A DNA stretch of 64,000 nucleotides, from positions 186,001 to 250,000 of the forward strand of contig JAJRSE010000002.1 in NCBI GenBank assembly GCA_024278955.1, written 5' to 3'. This DNA comes from Planctomycetota bacterium. GTDB lineage: Bacteria; Planctomycetota; Planctomycetia; Pirellulales; Lacipirellulaceae. The notes under the pieces were generated by a model that was not told the DNA's origin, searched no databases, and was given only the letters and a program-made list of their open reading frames with translations. Shown piece by piece: positions 55,373 to 59,322 of the stretch. The stretch's first letter is position 1; each line of letters opens with the position of its first letter. Position numbers and translations under genes: made by a program.

Positions 55373-56989
55373 CTATTTGGCTGCGACTGCTTTCTTGGGC
55401 GGATCTTGCATCATCGAATCGAGCATCGTGCCAATAAGCGCAGTCGTCTCGCCGTTCTGCCCGGCCCCTTGCCCGACGACCATCACTCGCGGAGTAATCT
55501 CGATTCCCGAGTCCCCCACGATCCGCAGCAGTTCGATTAGCGCCGCGTTGCCTGGCCCAATCTGCGTCGCAATTTGCTCGTAAGCTTTTGCCTGAGCGGC
55601 AGCTCGCAGCTCAACCGCTTCGGCTTCCGCCTTCGCTTCGATGATAATCGTTTCGCGTTTTTGCTCCGCGATTTTCACTTCGTAAGCTGCGGTAGCAAGC
55701 CGTTTTTCCTCCTCGGCTTCTTGCTCGGTTTTCGTAAGCTGCTTCTTTTGCTCGGCTGCGCGTTGTTGCTCTTTGAAAGTTTCTTGCTCTTGAAGGGCAA
55801 TTTCGCGGTCGGTTTGAGTCTTTAGCAGTGCGCCGAGTGTGTTTTCGTCACCTACGTCACCAATCCGCACGCCGGTGATGGTCACGCCAATCTTTTCCAT
55901 CTCTAACTTCAGCATTTTAAGCGACGCCGACTCTTGCGTTGATCGCTGCTGCACATAATCGAGGGCTTTGACTCCTTCGGCATTGTTGCGAAAAATGGCT
56001 CGTACTGCGGAATTCATCACCGTACGTAACCCCTCCTGGTCGTCGCCTACGACGCCGACCAAAATTGGTGCATCGCCTGGACGAACTTCATACTCGATTC
56101 TCACATCGACCGGAAACGTGAATCCATCCGAAGTGCGGACCATGATCTCTCGCTCTTCCGCGTCAGAAAGACTCGACGTTTGGTTGCCAGCACCCGGAGT
56201 CGAAGCCGCGGTATACCGTACAATTTGTTTTTGCGTTGAAATTGGCGTTACCTGAAAGGCATCGGTGTTCAGGTAGTACTGCCCTTCCAAGAGCGGCTGA
56301 CGCCAAATGCCGCGCTCGCCTTGGCTGACGAGTCGACGTGTGCCCGAATCGTCTACTTCGTCCTCAGCGAAGGTCGGTCGCTCGCCAACATTCGATTTCA
56401 CCACGCCTACAGTTGCCTTTTTAACCGTCGTGACGTCGACCATCTTTACGGTAAACAAACGAGGGTTGATCCGATAAGACCCTGGCTTGAGCACCGAAGT
56501 CTGGGGTCCTTTGTAGCCGCCTCCTTCGGTGAGGAAGAACGTGGCATTGCTTGCCATTTGGCCCACTTTCTCGGGGCTCCACTCAGGCGCATACGTGGTA
56601 TCGGGTGGTAACGGCAGGCCATCCGAGGCATTGAGCAGCCCGATGCTACCGGCTGGTATGCTTTGAATTGCCGCATACTCGACATCGTAAATGAAGGGCC
56701 AGTAACCGGGATGCCAGCCGGGCGGCAAAATTTTGGCTTGCGGACCCTTCTCGCCATTGGTCGCGATGATTTTTCCTGACGGAAGCGATTGGAAGCCCAC
56801 ATTCTTAGTGACAACGCCGATCGAGTCTTCGCCTACAAAGCGGTACGACGCAAGACCGAAAAATATCACCATCACCACGACCGCCGCGCCGACCGCCGCA
56901 AGGCGAAGCTGCAACGAACGCACTTGCGAAGCGCTCGCAATAATCAAGCCCGCCAAAACAATTCCAATAAACAAAAACAAGCCAGACAT
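55373..56989 (-). CDS. SPFH/Band 7 domain membrane protein (flotillin-like)
   Basis: A 538-residue protein with two N-terminal hydrophobic segments (GLFLFIGIVLAGLIIASAS and LAAVGAAVVVMVIFFGLAS). A Band 7/SPFH domain runs from about residue 50 to 360, with SVGVVTKNVGFQSLP-type start, TSDGFTFPVDVRIEYEVRP and VMNSAVRAIFRNNAEG. A long Gln/Glu/Lys-rich coiled coil follows (EQETFKEQQRAAEQKKQLTK), and the end holds TALIGTMLDSMMQDPPKKA. SPFH proteins form ring assemblies in membranes and control proteases or lipid domains. The partner here is unknown. Confidence 0.83.
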   Translation of the reverse strand: MSGLFLFIGIVLAGLIIASASQVRSLQLRLAAVGAAVVVMVIFFGLASYRFVGEDSIGVVTKNVGFQSLPSGKIIATNGEKGPQAKILPPGWHPGYWPFIYDVEYAAIQSIPAGSIGLLNASDGLPLPPDTTYAPEWSPEKVGQMASNATFFLTEGGGYKGPQTSVLKPGSYRINPRLFTVKMVDVTTVKKATVGVVKSNVGERPTFAEDEVDDSGTRRLVSQGERGIWRQPLLEGQYYLNTDAFQVTPISTQKQIVRYTAASTPGAGNQTSSLSDAEEREIMVRTSDGFTFPVDVRIEYEVRPGDAPILVGVVGDDQEGLRTVMNSAVRAIFRNNAEGVKALDYVQQRSTQESASLKMLKLEMEKIGVTITGVRIGDVGDENTLGALLKTQTDREIALQEQETFKEQQRAAEQKKQLTKTEQEAEEEKRLATAAYEVKIAEQKRETIIIEAKAEAEAVELRAAAQAKAYEQIATQIGPGNAALIELLRIVGDSGIEITPRVMVVGQGAGQNGETTALIGTMLDSMMQDPPKKAVAAK

Positions 56990-57421
56990 CAGGTGATTTC
57001 TCCCTCAGGAAAGATAGTTGAACGTTTCGTAGTACCGCCGGCCAAATGCCAGCCGTCTGGGGGCCGCTCTCAAAAAAACCAGCCAGGCACGCCCCTAGCA
57101 GCTTAGCTTACGCTCAGCACCGGCGTTACAGTAGCCCCAGATTACCTATTATTTCTCTGCGAAATGTCCGATATTGCCGAAAAACAAGCTCCCCGCAGGA
57201 CAACGGCAAAGTCGTGTGAAGCAAGGGATTTTAGCCACCGAGATCACCGAGGACCCCTTGTTTCTAGCACTCTGTGTCCTCGGCGATCTCGGTGGCTAAT
57301 TCCTTTAAGTACTTGTAATTGTCCTATCTGGCCCCCCTTCTCCTCGGTTGCCGCCCTGGCAGCCTCGGGTTAAACTCAGAGGCTACGAACCTTTGTAGCA
57401 ATTTTGAGTCCTGAGCCTATC
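56990..57421. other. Intergenic region between the SPFH gene and the cimA leader
   Basis: About 430 bases without a protein gene. It contains the long hairpin at 57231-57299. A smaller one pairs AGCCTC (57361-57366) with GAGGCT (57379-57384) just upstream of the leader ORF. The cimA promoter must lie in the right part. Confidence 0.5.
57231..57299. repeat. Long imperfect inverted repeat (24-base arms)
   Basis: Arm 57231-57254 (TTAGCCACCGAGATCACCG and five more bases) pairs with 57276-57299 at 23 of 24 positions across a 21-base loop. A related single arm occurs at 59366-59387 (GTCCTTGGCGATCTTGGCGG and two more). No T-run follows, so it is not a plain terminator. Confidence 0.88.
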
Positions 57422-57538
57422 ATGTCGATCGCAATTTCAAACCGACTGCCCGTGCCGCTTGGCCTCGGGGCTGTTATTGATGACGTCATGAGTGGCGCGA
57501 TTGCTATTGCCGCCATTATCGAGGGCGATCGATCTTAG
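57422..57538 (+). CDS. Putative isoleucine leader peptide of cimA
   Basis: A 38-codon ORF reads MSIAISNRLPVPLGLGAVID, then DVMSGAIAIAAIIEGDRS. Seven of 38 residues are Ile, four of them within GAIAIAAII near the end, encoded by ATT or ATC. It is followed directly by an intrinsic terminator and, 200 bases on, by cimA, an isoleucine-pathway gene. It has no strong SD and is below usual size limits, so it is likely to be missed by gene finders. A regulatory leader whose ribosome stalls on isoleucine starvation is inferred. Confidence 0.6.
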   Translation: MSIAISNRLPVPLGLGAVIDDVMSGAIAIAAIIEGDRS

Positions 57539-57600
57539 GGTTCGGAAAAGACCGATACTAACCAAGCCCTGAGGCCGACCACGGCAGCAGGGCTTTTTTT
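57461..57600 (+). promoter_or_regulatory. Transcription attenuator (antiterminator and terminator) for cimA
   Basis: GGCCTCGGGGCT (57461-57472, inside the leader ORF) can pair with AGCCCTGAGGCC (57565-57576) over 12 bp with one G-U. That second segment is also the 5' arm of the terminator, so the two structures exclude each other. The layout fits ribosome-mediated attenuation. Which state the stalled ribosome favours cannot be settled by eye. Confidence 0.6.
57564..57600 (+). terminator. Intrinsic terminator between leader ORF and cimA
   Basis: AAGCCCTG (57564-57571) pairs with CAGGGCTT (57588-57595). An inner stem GCCG/CGGC (57574-57577 with 57582-57585) closes loop ACCA, and a run of seven T follows. 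It lies ahead of cimA, so it must be read through to express the gene. Confidence 0.88.
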
Positions 57601-57750
57601 GTTTGAAAAGAGCCTCTTCCAAATGACCAAGCCAAATATTCTGTGAAACCTACCTCCTGCGTTGTTCCCGCCGTTCCGCCGTGGTTCAAAGTAACACCGT
57701 CGCATCAAAATAAATTAAAACACACCTCCACCCCCTCACCTCTATTAGCC

Positions 57751-59322
57751 ATGTCCAAAATCCAAACCTACGACACGACCCTCCGCGACGGCGCCCAAGG
57801 CGAAGGCGTCAACTTCTCGCTCGAAGACAAGCTCCTAATCGCCCGACGACTCGACTCGCTCGGCTTCGATTTTGTCGAAGGCGGCTATCCGCTTTCTAAC
57901 CCCAAAGATGCCGAGTTCTTCCAGCGACTGGCCGAGAAACCGCTTCAGCACAGCAAGGCCTGTGCCTTTGGTATGACCCGTCGCCGGGGGATGAAAGCTG
58001 CCGACGACATCGGCATGAAGTCGCTGCTCGACTCCAAGGCTCCGGTTATCACCATCGTCGGTAAAACGTCCGACTTCCACGTTACCGAGGTCCTTGGTGT
58101 TTCGCTCGAAGAAAACCTCGCCATGATCCGCGACACGGTCGCCTATCTCTCGGGCGAAGGTCGCGAAGTCATCTACGATGCCGAACACTTTTTCGATGGA
58201 TGGAAAGCCGACCCCGAGTACGCCGCCAAGACGATCCAAGCCGCTGCCGAAGCCGGGGCGTCCATTATCGTGATGTGCGACACCAACGGCGGCAGCCTCC
58301 CAGAAGAAGTGGCCGCAATCACTCGCGAAGCCAGCAGCAAAGTCGACAAACCGCTCGGAATCCATACCCACAACGATGGCGAGCTAGCGATTGCCAACAC
58401 GCTGGCGTCGATCGATGCCGGGGCCGTCCACGTACAGGGCACCATCAACGGGCTGGGCGAACGCTGCGGCAACGCCGATCTGATTTCCGTAATCGCCAAC
58501 CTGGCGCTCAAGAAAAAAGGTTACGAAGTGCTGAATGGCCACGGTGTTGAACACCTCACCGAACTTTCGCGGTACGTCTACGAAATTGCAAACATGCACT
58601 TTCGTAACGGCCAAGCCTTTGTCGGCACCAGCGCTTTCGCCCACAAGGGCGGCATGCACGTCCACGCCGTCACAAAGGTATCGTCGAGCTACGAGCATAT
58701 CGAACCCGCGTCGGTTGGTAACGAACGCCGGATTTTGGTCAGCGAGCTTTCGGGCCGATCGAACATCCTCGCCATGGCAACCAAACACAATTTACAGAAC
58801 GACAAAGAGCTGATGGCCAGCATCTTGAAGCAAGTGGTCGATCTGGAAAACCGCGGTTACCAATTCGAGGCCGCCGAGGCTTCGTTCGATCTTCTCGTGC
58901 AACGTGCCGCCGGCACCTACAAACCCCATTTCGAGTTGGTCCAGTATCAAACCAGCGTCATCAGCCGAGGCGGCCAGCCCGTCACTGAGGCAACCGTGAA
59001 ATTGCTGGTCAACGACCAACTACGTCACGAAGTGGCCGAGGGCGATGGCCCCGTCAACGCACTCGATGCGGCACTACGCAAGGCGCTCAACGGGCATTTC
59101 CCCAGCCTGAACCAAATGCAGTTGGTCGACTACAAAGTACGGGTCATCAACTCCGATGCCGCCACCGCGGCGAGCGTACGAGTCGTCATTGAAAGTCGCG
59201 ACGAAAACGACTCCTGGGGTACCGTCGGCGTCCACGAAAACGTGATCGAAGCCAGTTGGAACGCCCTGGTCGATAGCATCGAATACAAACTTTGCAAAGA
59301 ATCCACAGAACCGCGATCGTAA
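57751..59322 (+). CDS. cimA: (R)-Citramalate synthase
   Basis: A 523-residue enzyme of the isopropylmalate-synthase superfamily. It condenses pyruvate and acetyl-CoA to citramalate, the first step of the threonine-independent route to isoleucine. The DTTLRDGAQGEGVNFSLEDK motif, with GEG in place of the PGV seen in LeuA, points to CimA. GIHTHNDGELAIANTLASID and GTINGLGERCGNADLISVIA carry the metal-binding HxH and cofactor residues. FVGTSAFAHKGGMHVHAVTK is typical of both. The C-terminal about 140 residues are the LeuA-type allosteric domain (isoleucine binding). ATG at 57751 is preferred to GTG at 57643. A leader and attenuator lie upstream. Confidence 0.93.
   Translation: MSKIQTYDTTLRDGAQGEGVNFSLEDKLLIARRLDSLGFDFVEGGYPLSNPKDAEFFQRLAEKPLQHSKACAFGMTRRRGMKAADDIGMKSLLDSKAPVITIVGKTSDFHVTEVLGVSLEENLAMIRDTVAYLSGEGREVIYDAEHFFDGWKADPEYAAKTIQAAAEAGASIIVMCDTNGGSLPEEVAAITREASSKVDKPLGIHTHNDGELAIANTLASIDAGAVHVQGTINGLGERCGNADLISVIANLALKKKGYEVLNGHGVEHLTELSRYVYEIANMHFRNGQAFVGTSAFAHKGGMHVHAVTKVSSSYEHIEPASVGNERRILVSELSGRSNILAMATKHNLQNDKELMASILKQVVDLENRGYQFEAAEASFDLLVQRAAGTYKPHFELVQYQTSVISRGGQPVTEATVKLLVNDQLRHEVAEGDGPVNALDAALRKALNGHFPSLNQMQLVDYKVRVINSDAATAASVRVVIESRDENDSWGTVGVHENVIEASWNALVDSIEYKLCKESTEPRS

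Follow-up and report, generated by a model that had tools for sequence, protein, structure and literature searches.

The window, a stretch of 64,000 nucleotides of planctomycete DNA, carries on its plus strand a short open reading frame, MSIAISNRLPVPLGLGAVIDDVMSGAIAIAAIIEGDRS, that runs from an ATG at 57422 to a TAG stop at 57536–57538. This ORF (57422–57538) has 38 codons, seven of them for Ile, and four of these fall in the stretch GAIAIAAII, as the sequence-only reading had reported. The four codons (ATT, ATT, ATT and ATC; 57500–57520) lie at codon positions −12, −10, −7 and −6 relative to the stop, so that codons for the product of the pathway are clustered as four within seven. Ile-rich ORFs occupy the same place in relatives. 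Downstream of the stop a terminator hairpin is predicted at 57564–57595 (−22.1 kcal/mol), with its 5′ arm at 57564–57577, and its 3′ arm together with a run of seven T residues (57594–57600) at 57582–57600. The segment 57536–57605 gave a fold z-score of −4.44 against dinucleotide shuffles. The hairpin had earlier been placed 26 bases past the stop; it is there, at a distance of 25 nt.

The gene that follows is cimA, encoding citramalate synthase (57751–59322, plus strand, start assigned by homology). Its protein matched NCBIfam TIGR00977 with 664.7 bits (cut-off 450). The ATG at 57751 is 150 bases past the T-run, the distance given earlier, and 212 nt past the leader stop; the predicted intrinsic terminator thus stands between the leader and the structural gene. 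Because the neighboring long ORF on the opposite side (55373–56989) is on the minus strand, the plus-strand terminator ends no upstream gene. The arrangement of ORF, terminator and cimA was confirmed. A short repeat, with four further matches in the genome at 90–94% identity, is located at 57655–57694, between the terminator and cimA. When the genome (93% complete) was searched with the ilvA model TIGR01127, no match exceeded the cut-off, the best being 80 bits. It is possible that cimA provides the only Ile route in this genome.

Ile-rich leaders upstream of cimA in relatives

A protein search in 43 genomes of the family gave 38 cimA loci, 37 of which made up the family sample. Two at or near a contig edge (L008 and L016) were left out, and 35 loci were assessable. 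Same-family relatives include Lacipirellula limnantheis (G033), Adhaeretor mobilis (G014) and Botrimarina hoheduenensis (G021). By eye, an Ile-rich leader and a terminator were present upstream of cimA in 22 of the 35, placed directly before cimA in 20 and before the gene preceding cimA in two (G026 and G028). Three loci were partial or divergent (L009, L038 and L042), and at 10 the leader was absent by eye (L012, L013, L015, L018, L021, L027, L028, L031, L040 and L041). The window's own genus had the arrangement at 6 of 11 cimA loci, with four absent and one partial, which counts against an attenuator. Since Bythopirellula polymerisocia itself (G002, a member of the window's genus) has no leader at its cimA (L015), loss of the leader is frequent.

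The loci of the genus without a full leader are L009 (G005), L012, L013, L015 and L018. By eye, L009 retains the terminator and L013 the promoter, remnants that suggest a recent loss of control. At L038 and L042 (G023 and G020) a divergent, longer ORF ending in ...GGAKIIYLAG or ...GGAIVIYAG, followed by a GC-rich terminator, lies upstream of cimA; this is perhaps a degenerate Ile leader. It may also be noted that at L064, L068 and L193 the Ile leader is followed by a gene that contains hydrophobic stretches (VPWVFDD/VPFIFDD/SPFVFDD). This gene is itself followed by cimA in the L064 and L068 genomes, and at L193 it sits after a cimA-like start.

The leaders were also sought without a covariance model: the 600 nt upstream of cimA were scanned for ORFs that end 8–70 nt short of a predicted intrinsic terminator. 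Of 80 named cimA loci, 76 were used, the other four having less than 250 nt upstream. At least three Ile in the last 18 codons were found in 24 cases on the forward strand against one on the reverse strand, at least four in 18 against none, and at least five in eight against none, the reverse-strand control being lean with three ORF–terminator pairs in all. A looser scan gave similar ORFs in Rubripirellula and Rhodopirellula. When 469 kb of cimA loci were searched by covariance model, all 24 matches at E ≤ 0.01 were on the coding strand and upstream of cimA.

Related leaders at leuA and DAHP synthase genes

The covariance model R1, for which 20 cimA leaders were the sole training set, matched in 38 of the 43 family genomes (E ≤ 0.1) and, across the order (Pirellulales), in 124 of 296 genomes (E ≤ 0.01). 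From the order-wide list, 129 matches, not the full list, were oriented and read (lower-ranked ones and a contig-edge match, G115:C69, stayed unread). By tblastn, 78 of the 129 stood before cimA and 40 before leuA. The other 11 comprised seven before a DAHP synthase gene, two Ile leaders before the gene preceding cimA, one Ile leader before a cimA-like start that is run together with a gene of this kind, and one match that stops at a contig edge. The leuA of L073 matched NCBIfam TIGR00973 with 725.5 bits (cut-off 598.7) and the DAHP synthase of L087 matched TIGR01361 with 364.1 (cut-off 267.75); one member of each group was named in this way, and the remaining members by resemblance.

The codons ahead of the stop followed the gene downstream. 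Within the 18 codons before the stop, cimA leaders had on average 4.02 Ile, and at least three Ile occurred in 61 of 65 leaders but in none of the 65 in other frames. For leuA leaders the corresponding figure was 7.51 Leu (at least three in 37 of 37), and for DAHP synthase leaders 5.86 Phe, Tyr or Trp (at least three aromatic in 7 of 7). Sixteen of the 129 leaders (13 cimA and three leuA) were dropped from this count, because the expected place held no stop preceded by 16 or more open codons. The model that recovered the Leu and aromatic leaders had seen Ile leaders alone.

Within the family the same was examined from the side of the genes, by protein search. The leuA set held 30 of the 36 family genomes with a match, and the DAHP synthase set covered 37 of 40, each by its best copy; second copies of lower similarity (about 50% identity) were left out. 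At least five Leu in 10 codons before a terminator were present at 29 of 30 leuA loci (one on the reverse strand), and at least four aromatic residues in 10 codons at 35 of 37 DAHP synthase loci (none on the reverse strand; 34 of 37 in a slightly different scan). For cimA, at least three Ile were seen at 18 of 36 loci (reverse strand, one) and at least four at 14 of 36 (reverse strand, none). Off-target runs of at least four in 10 codons, which come partly from other frames of the same leaders, were Leu at 4 of 36 cimA and 9 of 37 DAHP synthase loci, aromatic at 3 of 30 leuA and 0 of 36 cimA loci, and Ile at 0 of 30 leuA and 0 of 37 DAHP synthase loci.

The genome of the window itself carries all three kinds of leader. 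Its leuA leader, MNAKSLLPLLLLELAMSGT (L073, G000:C81:2386–2484, minus strand), shows a Leu run and an antiterminator arm that overlaps the stop, and its DAHP synthase leader, MASASSYFFWFTLTRSFYFRSLGGAGEFV (L308, G000:C125), is rich in Phe, Tyr and Trp with a T-run after it. The pattern TAGGG..CCCTGAG was considered as a leader signature and rejected as too short to be specific. It occurred six times in this genome against four for the reversed control; two of the six are the cimA and leuA leaders.

The predicted antiterminator

Where the layout is conserved, the leader closes with ...GGCCTTAGGG..., and the stop codon lies inside a segment that pairs with the terminator 5′ arm, CCCTGAGGCC. In the window this segment is 57530–57541, which overlaps the leader stop and is predicted to pair with 57566–57577 over 11 bp with one mismatch. 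A small hairpin (UCGG/CCGA, 57542–57555) is predicted inside the antiterminator. The fold of 57530–57578, before the 3′ arm of the terminator is made, has −17.3 kcal/mol. As the terminator 5′ arm is common to both structures, antiterminator and terminator are predicted to be mutually exclusive.

The sequence-only reading had taken another segment, 57461–57472, as the functional arm. The 12-bp pairing it described does exist, between 57461–57472 and 57565–57576, and the duplex of 57459–57474 with 57560–57580 reaches −29.3 kcal/mol. The window's conserved antiterminator (−17.3) is weaker than both this non-conserved upstream pairing and the terminator (−22.1), which counts against an attenuator. 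The role assigned to 57461–57472 did not survive comparison. For 62 of 65 cimA and 35 of 37 leuA leaders, the best partner of the terminator 5′ arm starts at most 12 nt from the stop. These counts are not independent, the leaders having been found by a model that contains the arm. In the three cimA exceptions the best partner lies before the stop, by 78 nt in the window (L058) and by only 16 nt in L228 and 15 nt in L250, and 57461–57472 was accordingly rejected as a general arm. It was rejected as a general switch as well. The segment ends 64 nt ahead of the stop and precedes the control codons. Both a stalled ribosome and one at the stop would leave it free, so that ribosome position could not gate it in the usual manner. 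It forms a strong duplex in the window and is probably incidental. By this comparison of leaders, the conserved antiterminator arm is 57530–57541 and not 57461–57472, and of the two it is the only one that a ribosome advancing from the Ile codons to the stop would cover or free. The geometry expected of such a switch, in which stalling frees the arm and arrival at the stop covers it, is thus present; the window's conserved arm fits it, yet is not the strongest pairing.

In the DAHP synthase leaders the segment overlapping the stop paired with the terminator better than controls in 0 of 7, which counts against an identical layout. In all seven the best arm was 21–34 nt before the stop, between the aromatic codons and the stop, with a duplex of −20.2 to −28.3 kcal/mol. 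We take the DAHP synthase class, on these predicted duplexes, to be a variant layout.

Covariation in the antiterminator was scored in two alignments. The 20 family sequences (A1) gave 0.164 against 0.153 for shuffled alignments (91 of 500), that is, no excess. The order-wide alignment (A2), which was fitted to the antiterminator structure, gave 0.237 against 0.124 (0 of 500), and at most 0.095 when slid by 1–3 columns. Moreover, 94 cells were changed on both sides, compared with 31.3 after shuffling, and all three pairs of the inner hairpin showed changes on both sides. A2 was built from 94 of the 129 loci (all seven DAHP synthase loci and 28 others were left out) and has 99 rows, the 94 loci in place and five extra low-scoring matches on the opposite strand. 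The covarying stems that had been proposed as a check were therefore found across the order, in the 94 loci of A2, but not within the 20 family sequences; Ile codons and alternative pairing were both conserved in relatives. By eye, a conserved hairpin had been suspected immediately before the Ile codons; it was dropped (mean z −0.56; 7 of 65 below −2).

Control codons and putative promoters

Most control codons are found between 13 and 6 codons ahead of the stop, the profile of the cimA leaders peaking at −11 to −6, and the last five codons contain few, if any. The Ile codons of the window fall inside this profile. Rare synonyms at control codons are a hallmark of attenuators. In cimA leaders ATT accounted for 187 of 261 Ile codons. 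The downstream genes, over their first 900 nt, favor ATC (1403 of 1771), with ATT at 348 of 1771. In leuA leaders 110 of 278 Leu codons were CTA or TTA, compared with 110 of 2391 over the same span of the downstream genes. Part of the preference for ATT comes from the training of the model on cimA leaders; the Leu codons are exempt from this.

A sigma-70-like match of at least 9/12 was found upstream of 49 of 64 cimA leaders, compared with 3% of shuffles (one of the 65 leaders had too little upstream DNA and was dropped), and upstream of 23 of 37 leuA leaders, compared with 4%. For the window, a putative sigma-70-type promoter at 57348–57376 consists of TTGCCG (57348–57353), a 17-nt spacer and TAAACT (57371–57376). 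It agrees with the consensus at only 8 of 12 positions, is under the scan threshold and was unlisted by the standard scan, which counts against an attenuator. The same promoter layout was seen by eye in the genus relatives L009, L013 and L017. The position of the promoter had been named in the sequence-only reading as a point to check; the promoter-like elements predicted here are upstream of the leader, and a promoter downstream of the terminator may exist as well. By eye, no obvious Shine–Dalgarno sequence was seen ahead of the leader ATG in the window, and this also counts against an attenuator. Upstream of the putative promoter, at 57231–57299, there is a 24-nt inverted repeat (96% complementary), whose match to an animal microRNA family was below the gathering score and is presumably due to chance.

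Occurrence in the phylum

In a phylum sample of 392 genomes, R1 matched in 19 at E ≤ 0.001. When 17 matched stretches were read (15 from the phylum sample and two from the order search), 16 preceded leuA, a DAHP synthase gene or cimA, in agreement with the kind of leader; among these the Ile run of L265 was weak. L262 (G424:C87:19323–19424, minus strand; 44.7 bits) has a TTAGGG stop and a terminator, and showed no clear run of control codons and no amino-acid gene downstream. In 14 named genomes, scanned permissively with no hairpin test or control, an aromatic leader with a T-run was found at 6 of 17 DAHP synthase loci and a Leu leader with a T-run at 5 of 14 leuA loci. The positives were in Thermoguttaceae, Isosphaeraceae, Paludisphaera, one Gemmatales genome and others. 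In this permissive scan, no leader with a T-run was found at the leuA and DAHP synthase loci of Brocadiaceae, Scalindua and Rubripirellula.

Discussion

We consider it highly probable that the element upstream of cimA is a ribosome-mediated leader-peptide transcription attenuator that senses charged isoleucyl-tRNA. The anatomy of the leaders, their conservation, the order-wide covariation and a codon type matched to the gene over three pathways were all observed. By its anatomy, the window's element would belong with the ribosome-mediated attenuators. The sequence-only reading, an Ile-sensing attenuator at cimA, is thus supported by the conserved Ile codons and alternative pairing, and its scope has become wider, with leuA and DAHP synthase genes included. 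Neither the different layout of the DAHP synthase leaders nor the lean reverse-strand control touches the main evidence from cimA and leuA.

For the start site, the stalling, the termination and the response to Ile we infer the following course. Transcription would start about 40 nt before the leader ORF. With ample Ile, the ribosome would pass the Ile codons, reach the stop and cover 57530–57541; the terminator at 57564–57600 would then form, and cimA would not be transcribed. With scarce Ile, the ribosome would stall at the Ile codons (57500–57520) and leave 57530–57541 free to pair with 57566–57577, and RNA polymerase would continue into cimA. Whether the arm is covered or free in each case would depend on the size of the ribosome footprint.

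The leader might instead control translation of cimA, or reinitiation on it, with the terminator as a mere boundary. Short leader ORFs near genes are frequent in Planctomycetes, where they have been counted and proposed as an aid to reinitiation (PMC4833913), and a few loci do have a Leu- or Ile-rich ORF with no detected T-run. Against control at the level of translation or reinitiation, which we regard as very unlikely, stand the gap of 212 nt from the leader stop to cimA, the extra gene that lies between them in L064 and L068, and the order-wide covariation of the pairing between antiterminator arm and terminator arm.

A structured 5′ region with a terminator could also be expected if Ile were sensed by an untranslated RNA structure, such as a riboswitch, a T-box or a protein-binding RNA. 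In eight representative loci, however, Rfam gave no match at the gathering score, leader, T-box and riboswitch families included, and the window region gave only sub-gathering matches to unrelated families. Moreover, what is conserved is the identity of the codons in a single frame, for which an untranslated RNA would have no need, and we give sensing of this kind hardly any credence. Finally, the ORF and its terminator form a complete small transcription unit with cimA 150 nt off, and could be read as a free-standing gene for a small protein or sRNA, cimA having a separate promoter. Distant members share an amino-acid class that matches the pathway, but not a protein sequence, and a free-standing gene is an exceedingly improbable explanation. 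Ribosome-mediated attenuation of cimA is the reading that we retain.

The attenuators of the enterobacterial trp, leu, ilv and his operons have a leader ORF with control codons, an intrinsic terminator and a competing antiterminator, and the position of the ribosome is the switch. The first three are alike in the cimA leader, where ribosome position would be the switch as well. The cimA leader differs from them in its target, in the overlap of the arm with the leader stop, and in having no Rfam match (eight loci). Among other systems, the ilvB-II motif, or Corynebacterium ilvB uORF, has Ile, Leu and Val codons ahead of an acetolactate synthase gene and is reported only from Corynebacterium (PMC11109978, PMC10272879). 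It resembles the cimA leader in having branched-chain codons in a uORF and an antiterminator opposed to a terminator, and differs in its mixed codons, its target gene and its host. The LEU element of actinobacterial leuA is described as a pseudoknot or alternative hairpin in which the Leu codon run forms the base stem with the leuA Shine–Dalgarno box (PMC1262725). The planctomycete leuA leaders share with it a leader ORF with a Leu codon run before leuA; unlike it, they end before an intrinsic terminator. Leader-peptide systems had, to the knowledge of the authors of one report, been shown only in Proteobacteria and Actinobacteria before their own addition of Firmicutes (PMC2965389). In the literature that our search reached, subscription papers being mostly beyond it, no description of attenuation at cimA or in any planctomycete was found; Lopatovskaya et al. 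2010 (Mol Bio 44:128) might contain planctomycete cases. Within that literature, the mechanism is known, and the phylum and the target cimA are without a published example.

Attenuation is likely, in our estimate, to be a general layer of control in Planctomycetota, with one kind of leader and interchangeable codons at the committed steps of Ile, Leu and aromatic synthesis, reaching to Gemmatales and Isosphaeraceae, where it is represented by single loci or genomes. The leaders described here offer a complete and testable account of a possible control of amino-acid synthesis in planctomycetes, with a new target gene, cimA, from the Ile pathway that is independent of threonine, and a set of sister attenuators distinguished by their control codons. 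The nucleoid compartments of planctomycetes are debated, and coupling of transcription and translation there is an old question. If the general layer is true, such coupling would be required in Planctomycetota; because attenuation needs ribosomes close behind RNA polymerase, these leaders make it testable.
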